Below, piece by piece: positions 764-57,660 of a DNA stretch of 57,660 nucleotides; position 1 is the first letter of the stretch, and each line of letters begins with the position of its first letter. The position numbers were made by a program, and so were the translations under genes. This DNA comes from a virus: positions 1 through 57,660 of the IMG/VR virus record IMGVR_UViG_3300042691_027362; one strand, written 5' to 3'. The notes below the pieces were generated by a model. It saw only the letters and a list, made by a program, of their open reading frames with translations, was not told where the DNA came from and made no database searches.

Positions 764-942
764 TAGTATTCTCCTTTGTAGTCTACGATACTGCACTTAG
801 CAAGAAGTGTCTTGCCTTCCCTGATTACAAAAGAATCCCCGATGTCTAAATTCTCTCGTAGTTCTTCGAGTGCTGTAGCCAGAGACTTGTATATCTTTAC
901 ACTGGTTGTCTTATCGCTGTACGTTATATATGCTTTTATCAT
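763..942 (-). CDS. Small hypothetical protein (59 aa)
   Basis: Begins at an ATG overlapping the rIIB stop (ATGA) and ends sharing a base with the next start (TAATG). The product starts MIKAYITYSDKTTSVKIYKS and contains a helix-like ALEELRENL. Function is not recognised. Support comes from gap-free packing in the operon and a frame that is open from start-overlap to stop-overlap. Confidence 0.55.
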   Translation of the reverse strand: MIKAYITYSDKTTSVKIYKSLATALEELRENLDIGDSFVIREGKTLLAKCSIVDYKGEY

Positions 943-1769
943 AGCGTCTCTCCACAGTTAGGACAATAGTTAAATCCTTCCACATCGTACTCACCACAAG
1001 CAGGACAATCAAAAGACTTCTCTTCTTCATCCTCTAACGCGGCGTTAGTAAGTTCGTATGAAGAAGTTACAAGCGGTTTGTCGATAAGCCCTTGAGACTC
1101 AGCTACAACTTTGAACTTACATACTCGCATCTTAGTACCGTTGTAATCCGTAGGAACTGCAACAACATCAGCAGGATCAACCTCAACATCGAGTAGCCTG
1201 TCATCTCCAGAACCAAAGTTTTGAGCATACGACATAGTAGCAACGTGTAAGCCATATGAACACACGTTATTAGGATTGTCGTCAACCTTGCTACGATCAA
1301 TCGATACAACATTACCTACTGAGTTGTCCATCTTCCCGGTGTGCTTATCAAGAAAGTCATTACGTACTGCACGATAGGCGATGAAGTTACCTTCGGTTGT
1401 AATAGGATGACCGTTATGTTCGAGAAACTTAAACAACATCTGTCTACTATTAAAGCTCGGGTTGTTCTTAAGCTTCGCCCAGAACTTAAGTAGGGGTTCG
1501 AATGGTAGGTTGTTATTAAAGAAGTCAAGCACTCTAGTCGATAATGATTCGGGCAAAGCGTCACCATCTACATGTACTATTCCATCAACAACTTGGAAAC
1601 CTCGCTCACTAAGAGAGTCAGCAATAGACAACAAAGGAATAATCTCGTCAAGTTTTCCCTCCTTGATTTTCTGAAGGACTCGGTCATAACGTCCATCAGC
1701 TTTGTTAATTGTAGTAGTCTTACCTGCGTGATTAAGTATAAGACTTTGTGGTAGAATTATGTAGTTCAT
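939..1769 (-). CDS. rIIB: rIIB-like protein with C-terminal zinc ribbon
   Basis: 276 residues. The N-terminal half (SLILNHAGKTTTINKADGRY...KIKEGK) and the central part (FLEHNGHPITTEGNFIAYRAV..DFLDKHTG, then CSYGLHV.T..YA) match the T4-type rIIB layout. An extra C-terminal segment has two CxxC pairs (CPACGEYDVEGFNYCPNCG), a zinc ribbon. It lies directly after rIIA with an ATGA overlap and AAGGAGG inside the end of rIIA. T4 rIIA and rIIB act at the membrane in lysis inhibition and phage exclusion; the same role here is inference. Confidence 0.75.
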   Translation of the reverse strand: MNYIILPQSLILNHAGKTTTINKADGRYDRVLQKIKEGKLDEIIPLLSIADSLSERGFQVVDGIVHVDGDALPESLSTRVLDFFNNNLPFEPLLKFWAKLKNNPSFNSRQMLFKFLEHNGHPITTEGNFIAYRAVRNDFLDKHTGKMDNSVGNVVSIDRSKVDDNPNNVCSYGLHVATMSYAQNFGSGDDRLLDVEVDPADVVAVPTDYNGTKMRVCKFKVVAESQGLIDKPLVTSSYELTNAALEDEEEKSFDCPACGEYDVEGFNYCPNCGETL

Positions 1770-3637
1770 GCGTCCTCCTTGGACTGTTTGTTAATCTCAT
1801 CAATTACAATTTGTGCAGAGTTAGTTGAGTAGTGCCCTAAGCTATGAAGCACCGTAATTAATGGGTACTTTTTTACCAGCGCATTGTACTCAGCACTAAT
1901 AGCAAGCATTTCTTTTTTAAGATCGGGGAACTGTTCAAGAAGGTAGTTCGTAATATCATCAGGCTCAGTCCTTCTGTTAAATTTTTTAAGCACATCAACC
2001 CTCTGATAAAAATGTGGAAGATTAGACAATCCTACCACACCTTTCTTGTTCTTGGACAGTAGGTAATTTTTTCCTTGTTCAAATGTCATACCCTTGGTAA
2101 GAACTAAGTTTTTATTACACTTTGGAATATTTATAACTGTAATAAACTTAGCAATAGTTCTGATATCTTCATTAAAATCGTCAACAAATACTACTGGCGT
2201 AGGATTGTTATTGAGTTTCTCGATTGTCCACTGGCTACGCTGACCAGAGTTATGTATTTGCCAACACACAGCATCTCTAGTACTCTTTTGTGTACGTTGA
2301 GCAGACTTTTTAGGCGGCATAGGCAGAGCGTCAGCATCCATTCGATTAGTAAATAGAATGTCTTGGAATGGAATATCTGAGATAGCGTCAGCACTTATCA
2401 ACACCTTGTCCTTATTTGATTCAAGATAGAAGTTAAGTTTACGAGCAAGGTTATTACCGTACTCTGTAGAAGTATAGACTACTACATTAAGATCAACACC
2501 AGTAGAATGTCCAAGCTCAGTGTGAGTCGAACCTCTGCGTCCTCTTCTAACATACCTGTATTCTTTAGGAAGTGGACAGACTACACAATCTTTCATGAGT
2601 TTAAAGTTTGCCCCAAGGTCTATGTTGATGCGGTAAATTTGATCGAACAATGAGTAAGTTTGTTTGTTCTCAAGCCTCAGTTTAAGTGGAAGATTTAAGT
2701 TATTAATCTTGTTAGTAATTACCTCTTCAATCTTACTACGACAATCGTTAAGCATCTCATCTTGTTTAGATTTATTGTCGTCGTTGTTCTCAAGACGTTC
2801 TCTTGATGAAGCAATTTTGAAATGTCCATTGGGAACATTCAAAGCTACAATGGAACTACTAGTGTTTAACTCGTCAGACTTCTTGTTCCAATAACTGGAA
2901 TATCTACCTTGATCTTCCATGATGTTATACTCGATACCATCAATTAGATAGACGGTACGAGCCTCATTCCCATGACAATCATACGCTGTCATATTGCCGA
3001 GCGTCAATGTCGGATTAAGTTGATGAATGTCCTTACTTCCGAGAAACTTGATAGGCTCTGACCAAAACCGAACGCATCGCTGCACCGCTTCTCTAAACTC
3101 TGCAATATCTTTAGGCTTCACGCCGATACTAATCTCAACACCATTAGCTTCTGAGGTTTTCTCTGTGCTGATGAGACTTACTCCGCCACTATCTCCCAAG
3201 TGTGCAACATAAATGTATTTAGTTCCATTAAAGTACGAGGTGACAGTGAAGCTATCAGTATAACTGAAGGCAGACTTAGCACCAATACCAAAGCCACCAG
3301 TCTGAGCATTTGTATTCCTTTTAGTTGATGATCCATAGTTTACAAAGATATTTTCCATTCGATCAGGAGAGATGCCTACACCAAAGTCACGCACCTTGAA
3401 TACGGGATCAAGTGTATTAGGTACAGTGATCTCGATAGGTAGCTTACCCCATGTGCCAGCCTCTCGCATAGCATCGCGACCATTACAGATATACTCTTGA
3501 ACAAGTGTTCTAATCGGATAAGCATATAGCTTACTCAAGATGTCAACCACTAGGCGTACATCAGAGATGCCGAAGTTGAGAGCTTTGCTCGGCTCAACGT
3601 TTGAATCAATCTTAACTGCGTTGTTGTTTATAATCAT
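1766..3637 (-). CDS. rIIA: rIIA-like GHKL-type ATPase
   Basis: 623 residues. The Bergerat ATP-binding fold is visible: E48 and N52 in QEYICNGRDA (N box), D84 in RDFGVGIS (G1 box), and GGFGIGAKSAFS near 114-125 (G2 box). This family includes T4 rIIA, MutL and Hsp90. Adjacent rIIB supports the rIIA name. T4 rIIA is a membrane-associated protein affecting lysis timing and exclusion. The C-terminal half has no motif I recognise. The stop overlaps the rIIB start by ATGA. Confidence 0.8.
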   Translation of the reverse strand: MIINNNAVKIDSNVEPSKALNFGISDVRLVVDILSKLYAYPIRTLVQEYICNGRDAMREAGTWGKLPIEITVPNTLDPVFKVRDFGVGISPDRMENIFVNYGSSTKRNTNAQTGGFGIGAKSAFSYTDSFTVTSYFNGTKYIYVAHLGDSGGVSLISTEKTSEANGVEISIGVKPKDIAEFREAVQRCVRFWSEPIKFLGSKDIHQLNPTLTLGNMTAYDCHGNEARTVYLIDGIEYNIMEDQGRYSSYWNKKSDELNTSSSIVALNVPNGHFKIASSRERLENNDDNKSKQDEMLNDCRSKIEEVITNKINNLNLPLKLRLENKQTYSLFDQIYRINIDLGANFKLMKDCVVCPLPKEYRYVRRGRRGSTHTELGHSTGVDLNVVVYTSTEYGNNLARKLNFYLESNKDKVLISADAISDIPFQDILFTNRMDADALPMPPKKSAQRTQKSTRDAVCWQIHNSGQRSQWTIEKLNNNPTPVVFVDDFNEDIRTIAKFITVINIPKCNKNLVLTKGMTFEQGKNYLLSKNKKGVVGLSNLPHFYQRVDVLKKFNRRTEPDDITNYLLEQFPDLKKEMLAISAEYNALVKKYPLITVLHSLGHYSTNSAQIVIDEINKQSKEDA

Positions 3638-4947: not shown

Positions 4948-5526
4948 TTAGTGAGCGATTAATCCAATCTTAGGATTATTACCTATCGCTATTAAATCAT
5001 TTTCTGAAGCGTTTGCATAGCCTGCGGCAATTAATTCCGCCTCGGTTTTGAAGATGCGAGCATGGCGGTCGGATGATGCGTCAATCAAGTCGTCACGTTT
5101 ACCACCCTCCGATTTAATTAGAGTAAAGTTTACAGGAAGCTTCACACCATCAAGCAATGGCAGACTCTTTGAGTAGGCATAGAACTTGACATGAGGCATT
5201 GATTCCATAACCTTAAACCACTTGTGAAGATATTCCCGACTATAGAAGTCACCTGAGTCATGAATGCGAATAACATCCGCTTTACGTCGAGTAATCTCGG
5301 CAATCATAACCTGCGGAAAATTATCTTGTTTAGTTGCCTCAAGTCTACGCTCAAAGGCAGGCTTCACATTTGACCAGATATAAGCTCCCTTGGAAGCGTA
5401 ACAGTATTTTTTGCAGTCACCTGCCCAGATACAAGTATCCTGCGCAGGGATACCGAAGTTAAATACTCTCAAGTTATTAAGTTTACTAGTCGCTTTAAGT
5501 TTACTATTCTGCGTCAATAATTCCAT
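4948..5526 (-). CDS. Gene product 88 (gp88)-like protein
   Basis: 192 residues. The N-terminus has the phage GP88 family signature: FNFGIPAQDTCIWAGDCKKYCYASKGAY, i.e. a C-x(6)-C-x3-C cysteine cluster ending CYA, then RIHDSGDFYS and FYAYSKSLP. The family is known from mycobacteriophages and other phages with no settled function; the cysteine cluster suggests metal binding. The gene lies between the SH3-barrel gene and an unknown gene in the leftward operon. Confidence 0.7.
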   Translation of the reverse strand: MELLTQNSKLKATSKLNNLRVFNFGIPAQDTCIWAGDCKKYCYASKGAYIWSNVKPAFERRLEATKQDNFPQVMIAEITRRKADVIRIHDSGDFYSREYLHKWFKVMESMPHVKFYAYSKSLPLLDGVKLPVNFTLIKSEGGKRDDLIDASSDRHARIFKTEAELIAAGYANASENDLIAIGNNPKIGLIAH

Positions 5527-5529
5527 AAC

Positions 5530-5838
5530 TTACCACTCCTTTTCGAATTGATAATAATAATCAGCTTCACACGCTCCTAATAGTACCCTAGTTATGTAAT
5601 GCTTAGGAAGCTGGGTAAAATCTGCCTCACTTACGTTTGACTGTAATGCCCAAAATACCCTATCGGCATCATTAAACCGGTCAGATGCGTAAAGCCCTGC
5701 CGCATGGCAATCTTCTAAGGCATTCCGGAATTCACGTTTAAATTCGATTCTACACTGTGTTATGAGGGAATAGAACAATTCCCTGCCCTTCGGTGAATAA
5801 TCACGATAATGGCTCAATAAGCCCCAAATGCTTCGCAT
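5530..5838 (-). CDS. Hypothetical protein (102 aa)
   Basis: Not recognised. A predicted helical, aromatic-rich protein (IWGLLSHYRDYSPKGRELFYSLITQ, then DRVFWALQ and ACEADYYYQFEKEW). Located three bases upstream of the gp88-like gene and read in the same direction, so presumably cotranscribed. Confidence 0.6.
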   Translation of the reverse strand: MRSIWGLLSHYRDYSPKGRELFYSLITQCRIEFKREFRNALEDCHAAGLYASDRFNDADRVFWALQSNVSEADFTQLPKHYITRVLLGACEADYYYQFEKEW

Positions 5839-9519: not shown

Positions 9520-10188
9520 ATGTTAGAACGTTGGGTTGACCCTAAATATAAGTTGCTAGGAAAAAAGGCAGCGGAGCAGTATCCTGAGCTAAACAAAATG
9601 TCCTTAGAGGATGCGGCTCGGTTCATTCAACAAAAGGCATACAAGGGGCTTCCTGAATTTAGAAGTGCTCTGGGATTGGGCAGTGACGTTATAAGCGATC
9701 CGGAACATCTTGAACGTATTGGGGCACATGCTAGTAGTACTTCAAAAGGCATTGTCATTAATCCTAGTCTAGAAGGCAGGGATAGACAAGAGCAGCTTGG
9801 TTATCTTATGCACGAATATGGGCACCAGCTTGATGATGCAGCTAAAGCCTACGGAAAGTTGCAGGCAGCGAGGGCGGAGTACGAAAAAGAATCTTGGCTT
9901 CCGAATCCTATTAAGAAAATAATGAAGTATAAAGATATCTCTGAGGCTCAGCAGGCAGCGGAGGCTATGCGTAAGAATTACCCAAGTGGCAAAATGGACC
10001 CTTTCTTAGATAGCCCAGAGATACTTGAGTATAAATCTGCCCCAAGCAATCCTCGGCTAGAAAAAGACTACGAGCATCACTTTAAAAGAGATTTCAGAAA
10101 CGAAAATCTTAAGCGCATCCAGAAGGGTGGTCTTGAAGAAGTGGTTAAAACTGAAGCATTCAGAAAGCTCAGAGATCGTCTGGCTTAA
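9520..10188 (+). CDS. Putative zincin-like metallopeptidase (HEYGH)
   Basis: 222 residues. HEYGH at 98-102 sits in GYLMHEYGHQLDDA, the HEXXH zinc site of zincin proteases, preceded by a strand (KGIVINPS). HHFK occurs at 186-189. RBS AGGAGA. Preceded by a degenerate late box and convergent with the following - strand gene (4-bp 3' overlap). A second HEXXH protein lies at 24652 behind the portal gene. Possible roles are virion maturation or cleavage of a host protein at entry; substrate unknown. Confidence 0.6.
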   Translation: MLERWVDPKYKLLGKKAAEQYPELNKMSLEDAARFIQQKAYKGLPEFRSALGLGSDVISDPEHLERIGAHASSTSKGIVINPSLEGRDRQEQLGYLMHEYGHQLDDAAKAYGKLQAARAEYEKESWLPNPIKKIMKYKDISEAQQAAEAMRKNYPSGKMDPFLDSPEILEYKSAPSNPRLEKDYEHHFKRDFRNENLKRIQKGGLEEVVKTEAFRKLRDRLA

Positions 10189-14589: not shown

Positions 14590-14952
14590 TCACTGCCTCC
14601 ATATTAAGTTAAATTTTTTATAATAAGTTTGGGATAGTGGATTTTTGATTTTTTTTGCTCCGCTCACTCCAAGATTATAACACAAAACGTAGCCGTTTTT
14701 AATTTTATGAGAGCAACTCTTCTTGAGATTTGACAAGGTCGCCATGGCTAATGCGGTATTTGTAGTTGGGTGAAAGATCCAAGAACTATTATGAAATCTG
14801 TACACTTGACGATTAAGTTGAAACAAGCCTCCATCATTTGTGCGCGACAAGGCTGTTGGGTTCATGTTACTCTCAAGTCTAGCCAATTGAAATGCCACGC
14901 TTGGATCTATTCCATTTATAGCTGAGTACAGAGTTATAACTAAGTTAATCAT
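14590..14952 (-). CDS. Lytic transglycosylase (SLT)-like protein
   Basis: 120 residues with the lysozyme-like core: LARLESNMNPTALSRTNDGG places a catalytic Glu in LES and the xGLFQLN segment, and CYNLGVSGAKKI matches the C-terminal YNxG element of SLT domains. No signal peptide is apparent. It would cleave the glycan strands of peptidoglycan. It lies in the leftward middle cluster, far from the virion genes, so it may serve as an endolysin rather than a virion enzyme. Confidence 0.65.
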   Translation of the reverse strand: MINLVITLYSAINGIDPSVAFQLARLESNMNPTALSRTNDGGLFQLNRQVYRFHNSSWIFHPTTNTALAMATLSNLKKSCSHKIKNGYVLCYNLGVSGAKKIKNPLSQTYYKKFNLIWRQ

Positions 14953-19684: not shown

Positions 19685-20086
19685 TTAATATACCCACAAG
19701 CGTTTTCCAGTTTTCTTTGGCTCTCTTACATCGACATGTACGAATTTTTTATTACGCCCATCCCCAATGTTATCAAATAGATTATAGCATATTTCGTACA
19801 GATCGTCCAATTCGTCCAAATTCATTAGAGACGGGGCAATATCAGCCGCGAGACCTGACATATGCGCACTTCCTACTTTTCCTCCGACAGCAGCGTTATG
19901 CTCTGGACAACGATATCCAGAGTTAACTATTATACCTTTTCCATAAAAGTCTCGTACTTGTTGGAGTTTATCTATTAGCTTCTGATCGATGAATTGATCT
20001 ACACACCTTGAACACGAACATTCAAACTCTTTAGAGTTAAAGTTTTTACTCAACTGCTTGTTGTCGCCTTTTTTAAATGATATCAT
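19685..20086 (-). CDS. Peptidase M15-type endolysin (D-Ala-D-Ala carboxypeptidase family)
   Basis: 133 residues from MISFKKGDNKQ (GGGAGA upstream). GYRCPEHNAAVGG, then SAHMSGLAADI and FVHVDV supply the H-x6-D and H zinc ligands of the M15_3 family. It would cut peptide bonds in peptidoglycan. N-terminal CSCSRC is an added cysteine cluster. No signal peptide, so access to the wall would need a holin or virion delivery. First leftward gene after the divergent control region. Confidence 0.8.
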   Translation of the reverse strand: MISFKKGDNKQLSKNFNSKEFECSCSRCVDQFIDQKLIDKLQQVRDFYGKGIIVNSGYRCPEHNAAVGGKVGSAHMSGLAADIAPSLMNLDELDDLYEICYNLFDNIGDGRNKKFVHVDVREPKKTGKRLWVY

Positions 20087-20773: not shown

Positions 20774-21190
20774 ATGAAGCTAGTATCAGCGGATGACGTT
20801 AGGGATATTTTAAGTCAGAACGAAGAGCTTAAGAAATATGGCGAAAAGCTCACGCAAACAAACTTAAAATTACAACAAGAGCTTGAGCAGACAAAAGACA
20901 AGTTGAAACATCTTGAAGAATTGTCCAAAGCTAACAGTAGTCCGCTTGCAATCGGTTCTAACGAGGAAGATGTTTGTCGAATCGAGATTGGCAGATATTA
21001 CAACCTAGTAAAGACCAGACCTCTTGAGTTTAACGAAGTGAAGGCATTTGAGATTTATGTCAAGTCATTGATGCTCATTCGAGGAAAAGGCGCAGTTGAA
21101 GAAAAGAAATCTAAAAAAACACAACAGCTAAGTGAAGATCAACTGCTACAACTAGCGTTGCAGGTTGTAGATGACACAAACGAACAATAG
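20774..21190 (+). CDS. Putative small terminase subunit
   Basis: 138 residues. A coiled coil (EELKKYGEKLTQTNLKLQQELEQTKDKL) is followed by CRIEIGRYYNLVKTRPLEFNEVKAFEIYVKSL, a compact helical domain, and a Q/L-rich tail. The length, the coiled-coil/helix layout and the position directly upstream of (and overlapping) the large terminase gene support the call; no sequence motif proves it. Confidence 0.55.
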   Translation: MKLVSADDVRDILSQNEELKKYGEKLTQTNLKLQQELEQTKDKLKHLEELSKANSSPLAIGSNEEDVCRIEIGRYYNLVKTRPLEFNEVKAFEIYVKSLMLIRGKGAVEEKKSKKTQQLSEDQLLQLALQVVDDTNEQ

Positions 21191-22630: not shown

Positions 22631-24652
22631 ATGGCTAAAGCTACATATTTTGCTGCGAGAGAAGGTAAGGAGACAGCATCTGTTTTGCTCGAAAAGGCAA
22701 CAGATTGGAGAAATACCCTTACTACTAACGGATATCTAGAGAAGCTTAAGACATGCTGGGCTGCATATCATGGAGCATATTTCACTGATACTGCATCCGG
22801 ACACACCATAACTTTTGCGGGAGAGCAGGGGGAGCTTGCACAGCTTCCGGTGAATCACATTCGAAACCTTGCTCAGCACATGTACGTTATGACAACATCA
22901 AGCCGCCCATCCATGGAGGCTCGTGCTGCAAATACTGACTATAAATCCAGTGCTCAAGTTACCCTAGCTAATGGTCTTCTCGATTATTATATGCGGGAAA
23001 AGCGGCTAGAGCGTTATATTAATCGTGCTGTTGAATTAAGTATTGTTCTTGGCGCGGGCTACGTTAAGATTGAATGGGATGCCACCACCGGTAAGGTTGT
23101 CGAGGAAGATGAAGAAAGTGGAGAAAAAGTGTATGAAGGTGACATAAAGTTCACAAACTTGTCACCATTTGATGTTGTGTTTGATGTAAATAAAGAAGAT
23201 AATAGCCATGACTGGGTTCTTGTCAGAACGTATAAAAATAAATTCGATCTAGCTGCTAAGTACCCAGAACTTGAAGACAAAATCTTGGCACTTGACACAA
23301 AATCAACAAAAGACAGATACTCTTTACAGGTTTTCCGTAAAGTAGAATCTGACGAGGTTGAGGTGTGGACAATGTATCATCGCAAGAGCGACGCTATTCC
23401 CGAAGGTCGAGAATTGATATTCTTATCTGATGACATTGTTCTACATGATCAAGTTCTTCCTTATCGTAGAATCCCTGTTTTTAGAATGAGTCCAAACGTA
23501 ATTCTTGGAACTGACTTCGGATACTCTAATTTATTTGACCTACTTCCCCTCCAAGAAGGTATCAATCATTTGTACTCTTCTATAATGTCAAACAATATTG
23601 CATTTGCGACCCAGAATCTATTTGTTCGTTCGGGTGCCAATATCGATATCACTAATCTTGGCGGAGGATTGAATATCATACAAGGATCGGAGAAACCTGA
23701 ACCCCTTAATCTATTGGGGACATCTCAAGAAACTTATAGTTTTCTAAGCATCCTAGAGTCTAAAATGGAACAACTATCTGGAGTAAACTCTGTAACTAGA
23801 GGAACTCCCGATCCAGCTCAAAACTTAAGATCAGGAAACTCTCTCGCTATGGTTCAATCCATGGCAATTCAGTTTCAATCAGGTCTTCAAAATCAGTACG
23901 TTCAATTAGTAGAAGATCTTGGCGTTGCTATTCTTGAAATTCTACAAGATTACGCAATGGCACCGCGAGTTGCCTCTATTGTTGGTATAAATAATAAGCA
24001 ATACCTTGTAGCCTTTAAGGGTTCTGATATTGCAGATATTAATAGGGTAATTGTTGATGTAGGAAATCCTCTCGCGAGAACTACAGCAGGACGGGTTCAG
24101 ATGGCAGAACAGCTTATGCAGATGAAGCCAGATGAATTCTCAATTCAGCAGTATGCTCAGGTGATTAATACTGGTCGCATTGATGGAATGATGGAAAGTC
24201 CAGTTGACCAATCTAATCTTATTCAGCAAGAAAACGAACGCCTTATTCAGGGTATTTCAGTTCCCGCCCTTGTCATTGACGATCATAAAGAGCATATCTT
24301 GCGCCATAGAATTATCCTGAATGACATTGATATTCGCATGGATGATGAAAGAGCTTCTGTAATTTTTGCTCACATTCAAGAGCACATTAACTTTGCAAGA
24401 AGCACTGATCCGGCAGTACTTACAATGACTAATCAGCAGCAGCTACCCCCATCAGCGCCGCCAGCCGAACCCGGAAAAGACTTAGCTAATAATCCTGAGC
24501 AGAATTCTGAGGGTCAGTCAGCTATAGGACAAGTAATGGAAGGTTCAGAGCAAAGTCAAGGTCAACTAATGCCGGGAACCCCAGCACCAGCTACTCCCCC
24601 AGCCCCTTTTGAAAATTTACCAACTACAACTGTACCAACCCCTAATCAATAA
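22631..24652 (+). CDS. Portal protein
   Basis: 673 residues following the terminase. Mixed alpha/beta N-terminal half typical of podovirus portals (TTSSRPSMEARAANTDYKSS, then DIKFTNLSPFDVVFDV), a central LLPLQEGINHLYSSIMSNN, the SGVNSVTRGTPDPAQNLRSG loop, and a Pro/Gln-rich tail past 600 (PPSAPPAEPGKD...). It forms the dodecameric ring at the packaging vertex. The call rests on position, size and portal-like segments. Confidence 0.8.
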   Translation: MAKATYFAAREGKETASVLLEKATDWRNTLTTNGYLEKLKTCWAAYHGAYFTDTASGHTITFAGEQGELAQLPVNHIRNLAQHMYVMTTSSRPSMEARAANTDYKSSAQVTLANGLLDYYMREKRLERYINRAVELSIVLGAGYVKIEWDATTGKVVEEDEESGEKVYEGDIKFTNLSPFDVVFDVNKEDNSHDWVLVRTYKNKFDLAAKYPELEDKILALDTKSTKDRYSLQVFRKVESDEVEVWTMYHRKSDAIPEGRELIFLSDDIVLHDQVLPYRRIPVFRMSPNVILGTDFGYSNLFDLLPLQEGINHLYSSIMSNNIAFATQNLFVRSGANIDITNLGGGLNIIQGSEKPEPLNLLGTSQETYSFLSILESKMEQLSGVNSVTRGTPDPAQNLRSGNSLAMVQSMAIQFQSGLQNQYVQLVEDLGVAILEILQDYAMAPRVASIVGINNKQYLVAFKGSDIADINRVIVDVGNPLARTTAGRVQMAEQLMQMKPDEFSIQQYAQVINTGRIDGMMESPVDQSNLIQQENERLIQGISVPALVIDDHKEHILRHRIILNDIDIRMDDERASVIFAHIQEHINFARSTDPAVLTMTNQQQLPPSAPPAEPGKDLANNPEQNSEGQSAIGQVMEGSEQSQGQLMPGTPAPATPPAPFENLPTTTVPTPNQ

Positions 24653-25503
24653 TGAAACAAAAGCGATTTTCACAAGTTACACCGAGAGCCATAGATCAAT
24701 TTAATTCTTATATTGCTAATACACCAATGGTGCAATATGAGGATTTGGTTAATAAGGCTTTAGAAATGGGATATGATCCGCATGAACTGATAGACACAGC
24801 ACTAGGTAGCGTTAAGTACGAAAAGTCTGGAGCTAATCTAAAAAACTCACTAGAAGACATTTTAAATTCCATTTACGAAAAAGATATAGTTCCCGGAAAA
24901 AGATACGTTATAGATCCTCTAGAGGCTGTTTCCAGAAGAGCAAAAGAGGTTGCAAAAAATCTAGAAGGGTCGGTAGGGTTTGCTTCGGCGTTATCTTCAA
25001 AAAGAAGAGCACTTCCAGATTATGCGGCAGTGATACCAAGATCTAGCGAGATGGGTAAATTTAGAGCCATTGGTGACGCTGGTCACGAATTAGAACATTT
25101 AAAAGATTTTTTAATTAGACCAGATTTTAGACCAAAAACAGAGCAAGCCTATAAAAGTGGACATCATTTCAAAGATATATACGAACCAAGGGAATTAATT
25201 CGAGAAGTTAAGGATCTTCCAGAAGATTCGAAAGTTGTAAAAGAGATAGCAAAGCAAAGCAAGAAGTCAGGATTAAGCCCGTCATTATTTACACGATTAC
25301 GTTCTTTAGTTGGGATTGTTCCCGGACTAGCTGCCGCCGGCTTAGCTGCGTATGCCCCTGATTCAAAAGCAGCCCAGATTCCAGCAAAAGTTATTGAAGA
25401 GGGAGATCCAACATCTGCCCTATTTCCACCAGAAGCTGGCGCAGGAGAGGAAGAAGAAATTAAAAAAATGTACGAAGAAGCAAAAAAGAAAAATTTAAAA
25501 TAA
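24652..25503 (+). CDS. Putative zincin-like virion protein (HELEH)
   Basis: 283 residues, coupled to the portal stop (TAATG). HELEH at 145-149 in AGHELEHLKDFL is an HEXXH zinc site; HHFK follows at 171-174. A hydrophobic Gly/Ala segment (VGIVPGLAAAGLAAYAPDSKA) near 220-240 precedes an acidic Lys/Glu tail. Lying between portal and scaffold suggests a head maturation protease or an ejected enzyme. No other prohead protease is visible nearby. Confidence 0.6.
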   Translation: MKQKRFSQVTPRAIDQFNSYIANTPMVQYEDLVNKALEMGYDPHELIDTALGSVKYEKSGANLKNSLEDILNSIYEKDIVPGKRYVIDPLEAVSRRAKEVAKNLEGSVGFASALSSKRRALPDYAAVIPRSSEMGKFRAIGDAGHELEHLKDFLIRPDFRPKTEQAYKSGHHFKDIYEPRELIREVKDLPEDSKVVKEIAKQSKKSGLSPSLFTRLRSLVGIVPGLAAAGLAAYAPDSKAAQIPAKVIEEGDPTSALFPPEAGAGEEEEIKKMYEEAKKKNLK

Positions 25504-40632: not shown

Positions 40633-43600
40633 ATGCCTATCGCGATTGCTCAGACTAGTGGTAACTGGAGTTCCGCTGCAACATGGTTCGATGGATATAT
40701 TCCTCAAGCTGGGGATTTTGTTTTTGCAAATAACTTCACCGTGACGATTGATCAAGACTTTACCGTTGAACGTATTTCAGTCTCTTCCTACGCCGGAGCT
40801 AGAGCTAATCCAAACATGTCCAGCAACTCTAGCCCGAGTGGAACGGCTTCTGCGTCTTCCAACGGGTCCAACGCATGGATTGCCTTCGATGGATCTGTTG
40901 CTTCCACTGGTAACGCATGGGTATCGACAGCCGGATCAGGTCCAACTGGATGGGTGGCATATCAGTTTCCATCAACGAGAAGGATGGTTCGCTATTCACT
41001 GACCGCATCAATTGATTCCACTAACACGAACCAAAACCCTACTGCTTGGGAATGGCAGGGATCAGATGATGGGATTACGTGGACAACTCTTCAAACAGTT
41101 ACAGGACAATCCCTTGGTCCTGGGTCTATCTATGACTCTGGAGTCTTAACCCAACCTAACTCTTACCTTCGGTATAGAATCAACATCACTGCAAGTGGTG
41201 CAGGTGCAACGCAAACACGAGTTGGAGAACTATCTTTTTTTGAGTATATCAACGGAGCAAGAACAGCCTCCATTGGGGGCAATTTTTTAGCGAGTTCTCC
41301 TCGAACGATAAATCTTCAAGCCACTACTCCACTGTTTCATGGAAATAACATTCCAGTTTTAACAGTGAATCACTCTGGGGCATCTCCATTCGTCTTAAAC
41401 GCAGCGAATACCATTACGGGCAGCTTTTCATCTGGAGTTATTTCTCACATCAACACTGGAGCGTTAACGATCACTTGCCCGAGCATGGGAGGATCAGGAT
41501 CAAACAGCGGGAACACGTTGATTCGATCAGGGTCAGGAACGCTGAACATTAACTCAGTTTTAAACGGCGCAAGCTCAAACGCGAGTAATGTGACTCTTTC
41601 AAATACTGGCACAGGAACAATCAATGTCGTAGGCAATATCGTCTCAGGTTCCGGAGTCAACTCCGCTCAGGTTATCGTATCGACTCAAGGTGATATTAAT
41701 GTGACTGGAAATGTTTTCGGTGGAACTGGAGCAGGGGTCACAGGCATCTCGCTTTCAGGCGGTACGGTAGTGGTTAACGGAACCGTAACTGGTGGAACTG
41801 CTACGGCAATCAACCACTCTTCAACTGTGACGGTGAATGGAAACGTAAACACAATCGGATCAGCGTTTGGGGTTTCCTCAAGCGTTGGGGGCACGACAAA
41901 TGTTATCGGTAATGCCACGGCAGGTGCAAGTGGGGCTGCGATATACCTGAGCAATAACGCTCACACTCTTAACTTCACTGGGAACATTATTAACAACCTT
42001 TCTAGACAAGCTATCGTATCGACGACTCTTAGATTATCTGATTCGCTGCCATCATTCTGGCAAGCGGCGACAGTAACAAATGCAGCGAAGACGTTCTACA
42101 CTGAAGACACATTCCCCAACTCTCCGGCGGCACTAGACGTAAGAAGCGGAACTACTTACGGACCTGGACTTGCATCGACAGGAACGCTCATCGTACCGTC
42201 ACCAAGTAACGTAGTCGCAGGTGTTCCTACTGACAACACAGTAGGAACATATTCAACTACTCCGACACTGATCGCGACAGAAATCTTCACAAAGCTCCTA
42301 TCTAACTCTGACTTCAACACCGCTGGAAGCTTCGGAAAGCTAGTGAAAGATAATCTCGACGCCACAGTATCAAGCAGATCTACTCAGACAAGTGTTGATT
42401 CAATCCCTACAAACCCACTTCTTACCACCGACTCACGCCTTAATAACCTCGATGCTACTGTATCTAGTCGACTTGCTTCGGCTTCTTATACCGCTCCAGA
42501 TAATACTACAATTGGAACTATTAACACTAAGATTGGGACCCCTGTTTCTACAGTATCAAGTGACATCGCTTCAGTTAAGTCAGATACAAATGGATTAAGA
42601 ACTGATTACACAACGTCAAGAGCAAGTAATCTAGACAACCTAGATGCGACTGTTTCTAGTAGGCTAGCATCAGCGTCCTATGTTGCTCCTGCTAACTCAG
42701 ACATTGCTGCGATTAAGGCTAAGACTGACAATCTCCCATCTGATCCGGCTAGTGAGACTACCGTTAACACTCGTCTGGCATCATCGTCTTATACCGCCCC
42801 AGATAATGCGACTATCGGCACTATTAACACGAAGCTAGGTACTCCTGTCTCATCTGTTTCTAGCGATATTGCAGCGGTTAAATCGGACACCGCAAGCATT
42901 GACGGTAAAGTGGATGTAACACTCTCGACTAGAGCTACGCAGACTAGCGTTAACGCAATCCCTACTAATCCGCTACTTACCACAGATTCACGGCTTGATA
43001 ATCTGGACGCGACTATCTCAAGTCGCCTTGCTTCAGCTTCTTACGTTGCACCAGACAACTCTGGAATCACGGCTATCAAGGCTAAGACAGATAACCTCCC
43101 GAGTGATCCAGCAGATAACTCTGACATCCTAGGGGCTATCTCTGCTATCCCATCCGCTCCATCAGCTTCATCCGTCGCCTCTGCAGTACGTACGGAGCTG
43201 ACTACTGAACTAGGGCGTATTGATGTGGCTACCTCAACAAGACTTGCATCGGCTTCTTATGTTGCGCCTGCAAATTCTGACATTGCCGCAATTAAGGCAA
43301 AGACCGATAATCTTCCATCCGATCCGGCGGATAATTCTGACATTCTTAGCGCAATTAGTTCAATTCCATCTGCCCCATCAGCCTCTAGTGTAGCGTCTGC
43401 CGTTAGAACAGAACTTACTGTTGAGCTTGATAGAATTGATGTGGACGTATCGAGCAGATTAGCGTCTAGCTCCTACACTGCACCCGATAACTCATCGATC
43501 ACAGCGATTAAGGCAAAGACTGATAACCTGCCAGCAGATCCGGCAAGCGAAGCCACAGTTAACACAAGGCTTGCAGCAGCAGCGTATACTGCTCCAGATA

Positions 43601-44196
43601 ACACAACTATTAGTACTATTAATACTAAGCTTGGAACTCCAGTATCGTCCGTATCTAGTGACATTGCTGCGGTAAAATCCGATACTAGTAGCATTGATGG
43701 CAAGGTCGATGTCACGCTCTCTACTAGGTCAAGTCAATCAAGCGTTGATGCTATTCCAACTAATCCGCTGTTAACAACTGATATAAGGCTCAACAACCTC
43801 GACGCTACTATCTCAAGTAGGCTAGCTGCATCGTCTTATGTTGCACCGGACAATTCTGGAATCGCAGCAATTAAAGCGAAAACTGATAACCTTCCAAGTG
43901 ATCCAGCAGATAATTCTGAGATTCTTGGAGCCATCGCTGCAATCCCAGCAGGAGCTACCCCTGAACAGATTGCTGATGCGGTCAGAACTGAGCTTACTGT
44001 TGAACTTGACAGAATCGACGTAGACGTATCTAGTAGGCTTGCTTCTGGCTCATATACTGCACCGGATAATACTTCGATCGCAGCAATCAAAGCGAAAACC
44101 GATAACTTACCCGCAGATCCTGCTAGTAATACTAATGTAAACACCAAAACCGAAGAAATAAAACAAAACACAGATTTAATACCTGCGATAATTTAA
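40633..44196 (+). CDS. Large fibre: F5/8C-like, beta-helix and coiled-coil repeats (1187 aa)
   Basis: Residues about 1-45 attach; about 70-205 show an F5/8 type C-like sugar-binding domain (SNAWIAFDG, WEWQGSDDG, NSYLRYRINITASG); about 205-470 carry beta-helix-like rungs (NTGALTITCPSM, GTGTINVVGNIVSGSG, TVVVNGTVTGG); about 575-1187 are tandem stalk repeats (SRLASASYTAPDN, IKAKTDNLPSDPA). RBS AAGGGGATTTAA. A likely glycan-binding appendage. A terminal chaperone domain is not evident. Confidence 0.7.
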   Translation: MPIAIAQTSGNWSSAATWFDGYIPQAGDFVFANNFTVTIDQDFTVERISVSSYAGARANPNMSSNSSPSGTASASSNGSNAWIAFDGSVASTGNAWVSTAGSGPTGWVAYQFPSTRRMVRYSLTASIDSTNTNQNPTAWEWQGSDDGITWTTLQTVTGQSLGPGSIYDSGVLTQPNSYLRYRINITASGAGATQTRVGELSFFEYINGARTASIGGNFLASSPRTINLQATTPLFHGNNIPVLTVNHSGASPFVLNAANTITGSFSSGVISHINTGALTITCPSMGGSGSNSGNTLIRSGSGTLNINSVLNGASSNASNVTLSNTGTGTINVVGNIVSGSGVNSAQVIVSTQGDINVTGNVFGGTGAGVTGISLSGGTVVVNGTVTGGTATAINHSSTVTVNGNVNTIGSAFGVSSSVGGTTNVIGNATAGASGAAIYLSNNAHTLNFTGNIINNLSRQAIVSTTLRLSDSLPSFWQAATVTNAAKTFYTEDTFPNSPAALDVRSGTTYGPGLASTGTLIVPSPSNVVAGVPTDNTVGTYSTTPTLIATEIFTKLLSNSDFNTAGSFGKLVKDNLDATVSSRSTQTSVDSIPTNPLLTTDSRLNNLDATVSSRLASASYTAPDNTTIGTINTKIGTPVSTVSSDIASVKSDTNGLRTDYTTSRASNLDNLDATVSSRLASASYVAPANSDIAAIKAKTDNLPSDPASETTVNTRLASSSYTAPDNATIGTINTKLGTPVSSVSSDIAAVKSDTASIDGKVDVTLSTRATQTSVNAIPTNPLLTTDSRLDNLDATISSRLASASYVAPDNSGITAIKAKTDNLPSDPADNSDILGAISAIPSAPSASSVASAVRTELTTELGRIDVATSTRLASASYVAPANSDIAAIKAKTDNLPSDPADNSDILSAISSIPSAPSASSVASAVRTELTVELDRIDVDVSSRLASSSYTAPDNSSITAIKAKTDNLPADPASEATVNTRLAAAAYTAPDNTTISTINTKLGTPVSSVSSDIAAVKSDTSSIDGKVDVTLSTRSSQSSVDAIPTNPLLTTDIRLNNLDATISSRLAASSYVAPDNSGIAAIKAKTDNLPSDPADNSEILGAIAAIPAGATPEQIADAVRTELTVELDRIDVDVSSRLASGSYTAPDNTSIAAIKAKTDNLPADPASNTNVNTKTEEIKQNTDLIPAII
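42355..44160 (+). repeat. Tandem coding repeats of fibre stalk
   Basis: About 600 residues of mixed repeats: NLDATVSSRLASASY, (Y)(T/V)APDN, AIKAKTDNLP(S/A)DPA, SSVASAVRTEL, INTKLGTPVSSVSSDIA. The peptide units are nearly identical while the DNA copies differ mainly at third positions (for example AATCTTCCATCC and AACCTCCCGAGT for N-L-P-S). Confidence 0.75.
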
Positions 44197-54992: not shown

Positions 54993-55322
54993 GTGGATAA
55001 AGATAGACTGATCCGTATCGAAGAAAAGTTAGATTCGCTGAATGAAAAACTTCAGGAGACTAATATCACTTTAGCTGAAAATACCCAGTCTCTTATTGTC
55101 CATGAAAAACGTACAGATCTTGCCGAAAAGAAGTTGGAGTTAGTTGAGAACAGACTAGAAAGACAGATTGATAAAGATAGAGACCTTCTTGAAAGACTCG
55201 GGGAAAAACTTAAACCGATTGAAGAACACGTTAATATGGTTAATGTTGTTTTTAAATATGTAATTCCAACATTGTCGGCGATTTTATTATTTCTCGTCAA
55301 GCTTGACGTTATTAAACTTTGA
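54993..55322 (+). CDS. Coiled-coil protein with C-terminal TM (XhlA-like), GTG start
   Basis: 109 residues, GTG behind AGAGGTTGTT. A long coiled coil (RIEEKLDSLNEKLQETNITL, LAEKKLELVENRLERQID) is followed by one membrane segment VFKYVIPTLSAILLFLVKLD. Same layout as XhlA/hemolysin-type holin partners. It is the last rightward gene and overlaps the convergent - strand gene by 36 bp. Lysis role inferred. Confidence 0.55.
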   Translation: MDKDRLIRIEEKLDSLNEKLQETNITLAENTQSLIVHEKRTDLAEKKLELVENRLERQIDKDRDLLERLGEKLKPIEEHVNMVNVVFKYVIPTLSAILLFLVKLDVIKL

Positions 55323-55868
55323 CATCAACATTTTGCCATAGTTAGATTGTGCCATCTTTTTATCAGTGGCGCACTGTGGATTGATGCATTTTAAATAATC
55401 CTCATACATTTCCTTAATGATGCTCAGTTCAAATTCATCCGCATCCCCATTAAACTCATCAAATACATAATCACTAAAGCAATTAACTCCATCCATCATA
55501 GTATCCGCATCAGTAAGAGAGTCCATAAATCCGGCAATATCATCTGAGCGAAATGTTTGACCTGTAGCATTTGAAACAGTTAACCCACAGCGATTACGTG
55601 TATTATTGCGAGTATAGCACTCCCTTCGTTCCTCTACAGTTTTATGCATATTATCTTCGCTATATTCCCCTTCGGAGGTTTTTTTAAAGGCTCCGCTTAC
55701 GTACTCTCCCATAAATTGATTTAAGTACTCAAGATCCTCCTTGCTGAGCTTTTTTAAATAATCCATATCCAAAACTTCAAAACGTGTTTTTGCATTAAGT
55801 CTTGGATTTAATGCCGGATATTTTTCTAAGTCGCGCTTCTTTTTGCCTTTCTCTTTCTTTTTTGACAT
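55287..55868 (-). CDS. Hypothetical protein (193 aa)
   Basis: Basic N-terminus (SKKKEKGKKKRDLEKYPAL), then FEVLDMDYLKKLSKEDLEYL and FMGEYVSGAFKK, and an acidic helical C-terminal half with four cysteines. RBS AGGAAATT. Overlaps the upstream gene by 74 bp in another frame, which is long for this genome. Not recognised. Confidence 0.55.
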   Translation of the reverse strand: MSKKKEKGKKKRDLEKYPALNPRLNAKTRFEVLDMDYLKKLSKEDLEYLNQFMGEYVSGAFKKTSEGEYSEDNMHKTVEERRECYTRNNTRNRCGLTVSNATGQTFRSDDIAGFMDSLTDADTMMDGVNCFSDYVFDEFNGDADEFELSIIKEMYEDYLKCINPQCATDKKMAQSNYGKMLMSKFNNVKLDEK

Positions 55869-56166
55869 AATTTCCTATTAGTTCGTCTAAATTTAAACTA
55901 CAAAGATCTTTGTTTATGTAGACAGAAGTCTTATCTTTTCTATTTAATTTTAACATATCTTGAAATGCATTCAAACCGATGGGATCTGAAGACCACGATT
56001 TATAGTGAAGGTGCAAATGATTTGTGAACACTCTATGATCTCCGTCAAAAATACAGAATCTCTCTTGATAGTACCCAACGTCATGCCTGTCGTCGTCTGC
56101 ATCAAGCTCCGTAGCTTGCTTTGCGATCTCAACAAGTTCCTCATCGCTTAGTTTGCGTGACTCCAT
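55795..56166 (-). CDS. Hypothetical protein with His-rich strand (123 aa)
   Basis: MESRKLSDEELVEIAKQATE, then ERFCIFDGDHRVFTNHLHLHYKSW (TNHLHLHY), and a basic helical end (GNYVKKERERQKEARLRK). The H-x-H-x-H could bind metal. It may be a homing- or replication-related protein; I cannot name it. Start overlaps the spanin-like gene by 26 bp. Confidence 0.5.
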   Translation of the reverse strand: MESRKLSDEELVEIAKQATELDADDDRHDVGYYQERFCIFDGDHRVFTNHLHLHYKSWSSDPIGLNAFQDMLKLNRKDKTSVYINKDLCSLNLDELIGNYVKKERERQKEARLRKISGIKSKT

Positions 56167-56512
56167 AACTTATAAATCCCGTAATGACAGCGCCAGATAA
56201 GAAATATAATGCGTTCTTAATAAACTGATCACGCTCAGAGACCACCTCTCTATCAGCCAACTCCTTAGACTTTTCCTGATAAAGAGATAGGCGTTTAGTG
56301 ACAATGTCTATTTCTTTTTCATTAGCTTCGTTTATCTTTGTGAGTACGTCATTTCGGCGTTTGAGTTTTTCCATATCTTCTCGGATATCTTTTTCGAGTT
56401 GTCGAGTGAATAGAACCCCATCAAAAGGAACGACTTCCCCTCTCTTGACCACTTTGACACTTTGAGCAAGGCATAGATTACTAGCAATGAGTAAGCTTAA
56501 AAATATTTTCAT
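56141..56512 (-). CDS. Spanin-like protein: N-signal, coiled coil, C-terminal TM
   Basis: 123 residues. An N-terminal Sec-type signal (MKIFLSLLIASNLCLAQS), a periplasmic coiled coil (RQLEKDIREDMEKLKRRNDV, EKEIDIVTKRLSLYQEK) and a C-terminal membrane segment (NALYFLSGAVITGFISYGV) ending TQTKR. That order (outer-membrane or export signal first, TM last) is the layout of a unimolecular spanin such as T1 gp11. The lipobox is imperfect (SNLC), so signal peptidase I cleavage after LCLA is an alternative. Confidence 0.55.
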   Translation of the reverse strand: MKIFLSLLIASNLCLAQSVKVVKRGEVVPFDGVLFTRQLEKDIREDMEKLKRRNDVLTKINEANEKEIDIVTKRLSLYQEKSKELADREVVSERDQFIKNALYFLSGAVITGFISYGVTQTKR

Positions 56513-56763
56513 TTCTTACGATCTCCCCAATACTTCTCGATCTCTTCGTCAGAAAGATCGCTCGCCTTCTGCTGATCAATCTTCTCCAGTTCTTTCTTTA
56601 GAACAGCCTTCTCTTCTTGAACTTGAGACTGCTTCTCTTCCTGCTTAGAATCCTCAACAGAAATGTCGTTTAGCTTTTTATCGGACTCAAGCTTTCGTAA
56701 TTTGTGAAGGAGAGCGACAATCGCTCCCCCCATTAATCCCAGTATAACTAGTACCGCTTCCAT
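56509..56763 (-). CDS. Single-TM, charged coiled-tail protein (84 aa)
   Basis: MEAVLVILGLMGGAIVALLH gives one N-terminal membrane segment, followed by a Lys/Glu/Gln coiled tail (SKQEEKQSQVQEEKAVLKKE). Layout fits an inner-membrane spanin (Rz-type) or a class III holin. It lies between a secreted ClpP-like protease and a spanin-like gene, so a lysis role is plausible but unproven. Confidence 0.5.
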   Translation of the reverse strand: MEAVLVILGLMGGAIVALLHKLRKLESDKKLNDISVEDSKQEEKQSQVQEEKAVLKKELEKIDQQKASDLSDEEIEKYWGDRKK

Positions 56764-56769
56764 AAAACC

Positions 56770-57510
56770 TCAGTTCACTTCACGACGCATAGAGAAGTAT
56801 TCAAGTACCTTCCCTGTGTCTTCTCGTTTTTTAGCTACCGGCATTGTGAGTAGCGGACAATTCGATACCTGAGCCTCGATCTGAAAAAACATTGCATTGA
56901 TTGTAATGTCTTTATAAGTGTTTAAACTTTCATCACATTTCAGAGAAACCACTTCATCCGCAAATCCATCCTCAATAGCATTAGAACCGACGGCATAGTA
57001 TTCATCACGAATGAGTTCGCCATAACTCTGTTTAGTATGTTTTCCGTTAGTTCTCTTTACAACATCCTCGTCCATTTTATCAACAAGAGAGATAATATGG
57101 TTAAGACGAGAGGTTATTTGTTGCGGAATATCTCCTCGAAATCCTCCATGGGCACGATGAGACATAATGGTAGCGAACTTAGTCACATAACGTTTGGGAC
57201 TATTTTGCAAAATATGAAACCCCATACTGGCGGCATAGTTGGCTACAACATGAACAGGTCGTCGCAGAGTGTTTACGTATTGCATAAGTTCTAGCCCAGC
57301 AAACACGCTCCCACCCGGAGTATTTAGAACAAGAAAAATAGGCTCTTTTTTATCTCCAGATTGAGACAGAGTGTTGATTTCTTGCATTAGCTCTGATATT
57401 GATTGGTCCGTAACTGGTCCCAGAAGAGACACCGTATTATCCTTGGTTAATAGAAGTTCCTTCGAAAAGACGTTAGTTGCCAGCAATGTTAGTAGAATAA
57501 ACAGTTTCAT
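56770..57510 (-). CDS. Secreted ClpP-like (S14) serine protease
   Basis: 246 residues from MKLFILLTLLATNVFS-KELL, chosen for AAGGAGAATT. Signal peptide 1-16. ClpP-fold motifs: NTPGGSVFAG at 63-72 (oxyanion glycines), catalytic S95 in NYAASMGFHIL, H118 in IMSHRAHGG, and a candidate acidic residue in RDEYYAVG (168-175). Cytoplasmic ClpP and phage prohead proteases lack a Sec signal; this one should act in the periplasm. Near spanin-like genes, it may serve lysis or envelope takeover. Confidence 0.8.
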   Translation of the reverse strand: MKLFILLTLLATNVFSKELLLTKDNTVSLLGPVTDQSISELMQEINTLSQSGDKKEPIFLVLNTPGGSVFAGLELMQYVNTLRRPVHVVANYAASMGFHILQNSPKRYVTKFATIMSHRAHGGFRGDIPQQITSRLNHIISLVDKMDEDVVKRTNGKHTKQSYGELIRDEYYAVGSNAIEDGFADEVVSLKCDESLNTYKDITINAMFFQIEAQVSNCPLLTMPVAKKREDTGKVLEYFSMRREVN

Positions 57511-57660
57511 AATTCTCCTTGTCAATTAATTTTGTTTTATTTGGATTTGTAAATAACTCCCTGTCGTACCATTCTTTAAATGCTAGATAACAAGAAGATG
57601 TAGGACTGATATATGGATGCATTATGCTGATGGGGCAAAGAAACCCATTGTCTTCGGTAT
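57473..57660 (-). CDS. Partial gene running off window end
   Basis: The only frame open from the window end: ...TEDNGFLCPISIMHPYISPTSSCYLAFKEWYDREL... ending NYETVYSTNIAGN. It overlaps the ClpP-like start by 38 bp. Not recognised; the start and most of the protein lie outside. Confidence 0.4.
   Translation of the reverse strand, partial: TEDNGFLCPISIMHPYISPTSSCYLAFKEWYDRELFTNPNKTKLIDKENYETVYSTNIAGN

Follow-up and report, generated by a model that had tools for sequence, protein, structure and literature searches.

The window, that is the whole stretch of DNA analysed here, comprises 57,660 bases of IMG/VR record IMGVR_UViG_3300042691_027362, which is classed as linear and is probably a fragment. 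It represents a tailed phage, with the genes encoding the large terminase (at 21171), the portal (22631) and the major capsid protein (27677) all on the plus strand. Close to the end of the window, the minus strand carries a gene (56770..57510) for a predicted exported Clp-fold serine protease of 246 aa plus stop, recognized by its match to PF00574, by its AlphaFold2 model and by the resemblance of this model to ClpP structures. An in-frame TTG at 57525 offers an alternative, earlier start, although the ribosome-binding site, a Shine–Dalgarno sequence AAGGAG read directly at 57515..57520 (minus strand), favours the ATG at 57510, which lies 4 bases downstream of it. The gene is under purifying selection, with a dN of 0.05 against a dS of 0.95 for the pair L001/L002. 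Elsewhere in the window, a 1187-aa tail protein (40633-44196, plus strand; PHROG tail, E=5e-23) contains many degenerate SSRLASASYTAPDNSTIAAIKAKTDNLPSDPA-type repeats in its C-terminal half, and homologues of rIIA (1766-3637, minus strand; PHROG E=1e-76) and rIIB (939-1769, minus strand; E=5e-62) sit in this phage with otherwise unrelated head genes. In phage T4, rIIA and rIIB are tied to lysis control and exclusion.

The start of the protease gene is overlapped by the C-terminal fragment of a gene for an HExxH metallopeptidase, predicted to be exported or anchored (57473..57660, minus strand), which is cut by the window end. Its orthologues are complete at L001 (4498-5004) and L002 (4444-4947) and share HE(W/L)GHC and SIM motifs as well as conserved cysteines. 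The metallopeptidase makes up a neighbour cluster found at 8 loci. In the clade to which the window belongs, its gene immediately precedes that of the exported Clp protease, at times with an overlap, and the distant family members L142 and L173 also have an HExxH metallopeptidase nearby. Two further HExxH motifs, HEYGH and HELEH, occur in the products of 9520-10188 and 24652-25503 (both plus strand), neither of which has a Pfam or PHROG match.

On the other side of the protease gene, the same strand encodes an 84-aa protein with an N-terminal membrane segment followed by a coiled coil (56509..56763; 7-member neighbour cluster) and a 123-aa protein with a signal peptide, a coiled coil, a C-terminal membrane segment and the motif KKGxxxPFDGVLFT (56141..56512; 11-member neighbour cluster), which weakly matches a PHROG annotated as ‘hemolysin’ (E=4.6e-4). 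The block also includes a conserved 193-aa protein (55287..55868, minus strand), found at 20 loci with orthologues 62–85 % identical, and is met by a converging plus-strand gene for a 109-aa coiled-coil protein with a C-terminal membrane segment (54993..55322; neighbour cluster of 15 loci). The gene order in the window clade is HNH, HExxH metallopeptidase with an N-terminal anchor, Clp, a protein of 83–96 aa with one membrane segment and a protein of about 123 aa, followed by further genes and then the converging coiled-coil membrane protein. L018 has, in place of the two small membrane genes, a single unrelated gene (5275-5706, plus strand), possibly a non-homologous replacement; its product is a 143-aa membrane protein with a single membrane segment, at the N-terminus, and a Thr-rich stalk.

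The preliminary description of the locus had called these neighbours spanin-like, a label that does not hold. The 84-aa protein is predicted to be oriented N-out/C-in because positive charges follow its membrane segment, and was rejected as an inner-membrane spanin. The 123-aa protein, considered as a lipoprotein spanin with a C-terminal membrane segment, was also rejected, as a conserved lipobox is absent. In addition, a scan of seven phages revealed no lipobox-containing ORF near the cassettes that would fit an outer-membrane spanin.

A profile scan of viral contigs identified at least 176 relatives of the protease, compared with 15 in an earlier scan; 80 of these were fetched and examined, and the residue counts given below refer to 75 distinct sequences. 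The window protein matches the Pfam CLP_protease model (PF00574) over residues 21–189 (E=6.2e-21). Its AlphaFold2 model, computed from 39 aligned viral Clp sequences, has a mean pLDDT of 89.9 and a pTM of 0.84, an earlier model from 4 sequences (pLDDT 57.6) having been discarded. Residues 20–191 superpose on solved ClpP with Z scores of up to 23.6, at about 2 Å and 22–28 % identity (Foldseek, VIA-align); the solved-structure matches listed in a second comparison are all ClpP and end at protease residue 189–192. The structure prediction that had been proposed as a check thus returned a confident ClpP fold.

The catalytic residues are equally well preserved. Ser95 (codon 57226..57228, minus strand; motif AASMGF) and His118 (57157..57159, minus strand; motif MSHRA) are present in 75 of 75 family members, and neither the glycine pair G66/G67 nor the S-M-G motif varies, which bears out the earlier claim that the catalytic serine and histidine and the oxyanion glycines are intact. 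The third catalytic residue is presumably Glu170 (57001..57003, minus strand), which aligns with the catalytic Asp of canonical ClpP and is Glu in 72 sequences and Asp in three. Asp169 was also considered for this role and rejected, since position 169 is mostly Asn across the 75 members and E170 is the conserved acid. The model, a monomer prediction, also retains the handle-region helix (residues 129–152), so that ring assembly of the exported protease may still be possible.

The N-terminus of the protein has the characteristics of an export signal. Residues 1–16 (MKLFILLTLLATNVFS; 57463..57510, minus strand) are predicted to form a Sec signal peptide cut before KE, with a hydropathy of 2.67 over 10 residues, a net charge of +1 and Ser at position -1; signal calls throughout this work were made by hydropathy, charge and cleavage-site rules. 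By these rules, the features recognized by Sec and signal peptidase I (a positive n-region, a hydrophobic core and a small residue before the cut) are found in the window protein and its orthologues. All six of the closest orthologues, from other viral contigs, begin in the same way, for instance with MKFFVLFFLLSLNAFA cut before A or MKFVLLLLLLIPTAFA cut before K, and the protease is the sole ORF to pass the signal rule among 61 non-overlapping window ORFs of at least 80 aa. Being common to the orthologues and unique among the window ORFs, the signal-like start is more than a chance occurrence in a single sequence. Among these orthologues, the signal stretch is only 45 % identical, compared with 70 % for the Clp core, which is the usual pattern for signal peptides.

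Of the 80 family loci examined, 79 have a complete 5' end, and every one of these encodes an N-terminal signal or signal anchor (73 above the hydropathy threshold, and L138, L143, L168, L171, L175 and L183 judged by eye); L160 was not counted because the contig end cuts the gene. The signal is absent from the 80 canonical viral ClpPs used for comparison, among which the only protein above the hydropathy threshold, L060, has an ordinary hydrophobic ClpP N-terminus rather than a signal, and from all 18 second Clp genes located within seven genes of family members. A few members have lipoprotein-like starts (L141, ...LASC; L197, ...LLSC). In the window phage, the predicted signal is probably cleaved after residue 16, while in some relatives it appears from the sequence to be kept as an anchor or lipid attachment. 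The combination of a ClpP-type fold with a Sec signal, first noted for this single gene, is therefore a trait kept across a phage family, to which an invariant cysteine pair can be added.

These cysteines belong to a C-terminal extension that is absent from canonical ClpP and runs from Cys192 onwards (56773..56937, minus strand; defined by the model secondary structure and the family alignment), with a two-strand hairpin (residues 199–216) and a helix (229–243) in the model. Cys192 (codon 56935..56937, minus strand) and Cys218 (56857..56859, minus strand) are invariant in the 75 sequences and are the only cysteines of the window protease. The model shows a C-terminal sheet with strands 186–192, 199–206 and 209–216, the first and third of which have these cysteines at their ends, and the conservation of the cysteines together with this strand order suggests that they may form a disulfide. 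Further cysteines have been gained as pairs in L116/L118 and in L119/L120. This pattern fits the trace expected of disulfides in an exported protein, and the invariance of the pair provides an independent argument for an extracytoplasmic location.

ClpP is a cytoplasmic, ATP-gated protease that is fed by an ATP-driven unfoldase. The phage proteins share with bacterial ClpP (S14, PF00574) the fold, the catalytic serine and histidine, an acid at the same place and the handle-region helix, but differ in three respects: the export signal stands in place of the axial N-terminal loops, the third residue is Glu in nearly all members rather than Asp, and the C-terminal extension carries the invariant cysteine pair. 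The GERSYDIYSRLL segment, which in canonical ClpP makes the axial loops and contacts ClpX, is missing in all members, with the signal found instead, and the structural match of the window protease begins at ClpP residue 22. The predicted export signal is at odds with a ClpP-type cytoplasmic location alongside an AAA+ unfoldase. We consequently file the protein as a Clp-fold protease and not as the ClpP subunit of a Clp ATPase complex.

The phage head maturation proteases (phrog_94, phrog_133, NF045542) are likewise phage-encoded and have a related Clp domain. However, these enzymes are encoded between the portal and capsid genes, as in Streptococcus phage APCM01, and the examined members have no signal, whereas the window protease is far from the head module and its family forms a branch of its own. 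The contrast with prohead-type phage ClpP had been drawn in the preliminary description, and it is upheld by the position of the window gene, about 28 kb from the capsid gene and on the opposite strand. A Clp-like fold is likewise found in SppA and the SDH/NfeD-type membrane proteases, which need no ATP for their activity at or outside the inner membrane; SppA faces the periplasm. Their profiles match the window protease weakly, and they use a Ser-Lys dyad, in contrast to the Ser-His-acid triad of the phage family with its invariant His118.

The exported Clp-fold proteases are a distinct phage family. A tree built from 103 sequences places the 75 exported proteins on one side of a branch supported at 100/98, the remaining sequences being canonical, head-maturation and paralogous Clp proteins. 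The fold, triad, signal and cysteines are thus, by computation, conserved features of a single family. A search of 50,697 records of isolated phages revealed no close member, the best matches reaching E ~1e-10 and at most about 32 % identity; the E-values of family members against the query, within the candidate sets, were far lower than these. UniProt entry A0A6J5KYR7, from an uncultured Caudovirales phage, is 40 % identical to the window protease, and its predicted structure follows the window model from end to end, C-terminal extension included (TM 0.84). It very likely belongs to the exported family, although it is named ‘ClpP protease subunit’, as an ordinary ClpP would be. A Clp protein of the giant virus Fadolivirus (BFVD A0A7D3V576, 299 aa) matches over 233 columns (TM 0.79, 24 % identity), and this match takes in much of the C-terminal extension. 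The ClpP fold and phage-encoded ClpP are already known. The open literature searched, on periplasmic, secreted or signal-bearing ClpP and on phage periplasmic proteases, contained no description of an exported family of this fold in phages; as far as this search extends, the family would be new.

According to a Pfam model search, 15 of 17 larger phage contigs contain two or three Clp-fold genes, and larger relatives therefore usually have a second one, whereas the six contigs of the window clade contain the exported gene and no other Clp-fold gene. Signal-less second Clp proteins are encoded near the exported one at L118 (3907-4524), L121 (4385-4954), L122 (4277-4852) and L123 (2447-3061), and in the tree these sit apart on a separate long branch. 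The surroundings of the exported gene vary over the 80 loci: the membrane-protein block or parts of it were found at 24, genes for SbcD-/SbcC-like nucleases at 32 and head genes at 13, with none of these at the remaining 11. In the head-gene context, the protease gene lies upstream of those for the prohead protease, scaffold and capsid.

The terminase and capsid protein of the window are closest to those of a Silvanigrella aquatica phage (29 % identity and E=4e-41 for the capsid protein, 26 % identity for the terminase), and five structural genes in all match this phage. It is a reasonable guess that the host belongs in or near the Bdellovibrionota; the diderm envelope assumed below is deduced from this distant Silvanigrella phage. 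The relatives differ in affinity, one group having SPO1-type capsid proteins and a second group a recombination nuclease whose closest counterpart is that of Myxococcus phage Mx1. Nothing significantly similar to the protease was detected in the searched part of the Silvanigrella phage genome, and none is annotated in the examined part of Mx1. Scans of bacterial genomes for the protease and for its 193-aa neighbour returned no match, so that no prophage host can be named.

Taken together, these observations favour, with a probability of roughly 0.7, an exported, ATP-independent Clp-fold protease that acts on envelope proteins of the infected cell. Such an enzyme would keep the ClpP fold and the Ser95-His118-Glu170 triad and would be exported by Sec, its signal peptide being removed after residue 16 in the window phage or retained as an anchor or lipid attachment in some relatives. 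Outside the inner membrane, a C192-C218 disulfide would tie the C-terminal extension to the core. The mature protein would begin at the first strand of the Clp fold, where the axial loops of ClpP end, which makes a ClpX-type partner unlikely on the basis of the sequence and the model. As there is no ATP outside the inner membrane and the axial loops are absent, an AAA+ partner would not be expected. We infer that the protein is proteolytically active and independent of an unfoldase, and that, with no need for ATP, it would cut peptides as well as envelope-protein segments that are exposed or unfolded. Its likeliest job would be to alter the envelope while infection proceeds, by eliminating host proteins at the surface, in the periplasm or exposed on the inner membrane that admit rivals or work against the phage.

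A role in lysis or in receptor stripping, as suggested in the preliminary description, is not established, two of the three main contexts being recombination nucleases or head genes. If the protease were a lysis factor, it would act late, cutting envelope proteins such as those that link the outer membrane to peptidoglycan, and so replace or aid spanins. Exported or anchored coiled-coil proteins and the exported metallopeptidase do adjoin the gene in the window clade and in several deeper branches, no conventional spanin pair was recognized near it, and the exchange of two membrane genes for one unrelated membrane protein in the same slot at L018 points in the same direction. On the other hand, the endolysin-like genes of the window (M15 peptidase, 19685-20083; transglycosylase, 14590-14952) lie at least about 37 kb away, and the frequent company of SbcD-/SbcC-like nucleases (32 of the 80 loci) or head genes (13 of the 80) is not that of a lysis gene. 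A lysis role is therefore possible but not favoured. A contribution to superinfection exclusion, by stripping or inactivating the receptor or by destroying incoming tail or ejection proteins in the periplasm, has a comparably modest chance of being correct: an export signal combined with an intact triad suits an envelope-directed enzyme, the 32 loci with replication-recombination genes would suit expression before lysis, and the window phage possesses rIIA and rIIB homologues, while the 13 head-gene loci point elsewhere. Remodelling of the envelope, be it for the exclusion of rivals or for the removal of host factors, is favoured over a dedicated lysis step because the gene keeps company with both early- and late-type genes and has no consistent association with lysis genes. 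Given this varying context, one role for all members is not assured.

Two further explanations would place the enzyme closer to known proteases. Under the heavy protein production of a phage infection, it could serve in an SppA-like housekeeping capacity, digesting what is left of signal peptides or exported proteins that have misfolded. SppA is an ATP-independent, periplasm-facing enzyme with a Clp-like fold, and its profile weakly matches the phage protease (E=6e-4), but the ClpP profile and fold matches are far stronger and an invariant Ser-His-acid triad differs from the Ser-Lys dyad of SppA, which leaves this explanation rather improbable. Least plausible by a wide measure is an ordinary prohead-maturation or cytoplasmic Clp protease with a hydrophobic N-terminus that is no export signal. 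Although the best PHROG matches are head-maturation proteases and in 13 relatives the gene precedes those for the prohead protease, scaffold and capsid at a distance of a few genes, a signal is present on every intact member and on no control, the window gene is distant from the head module, and an invariant cysteine pair would be unexpected in the cytoplasm. Moreover, the head-gene loci have a separate prohead protease and mostly also a second, signal-less Clp gene. A head-maturation role was rejected on the grounds of position, these separate prohead proteases, the second Clp genes of relatives and the signal.

Our preferred reading, that of an exported envelope protease, can be extended to the family as a whole, at slightly less than even odds: a widespread family of exported, disulfide-stabilized, unfoldase-free phage Clp proteases, sometimes paired with an exported metallopeptidase, would digest envelope proteins from within, shutting out competing phages or opening the envelope. 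For A0A6J5KYR7, the database name ‘ClpP’ hides the likely location of the protein. If the proposed function is correct, the family would represent a Clp-type protease that works without an unfoldase, as well as a phage strategy of host-envelope proteolysis that goes beyond the usual holin–endolysin–spanin picture.
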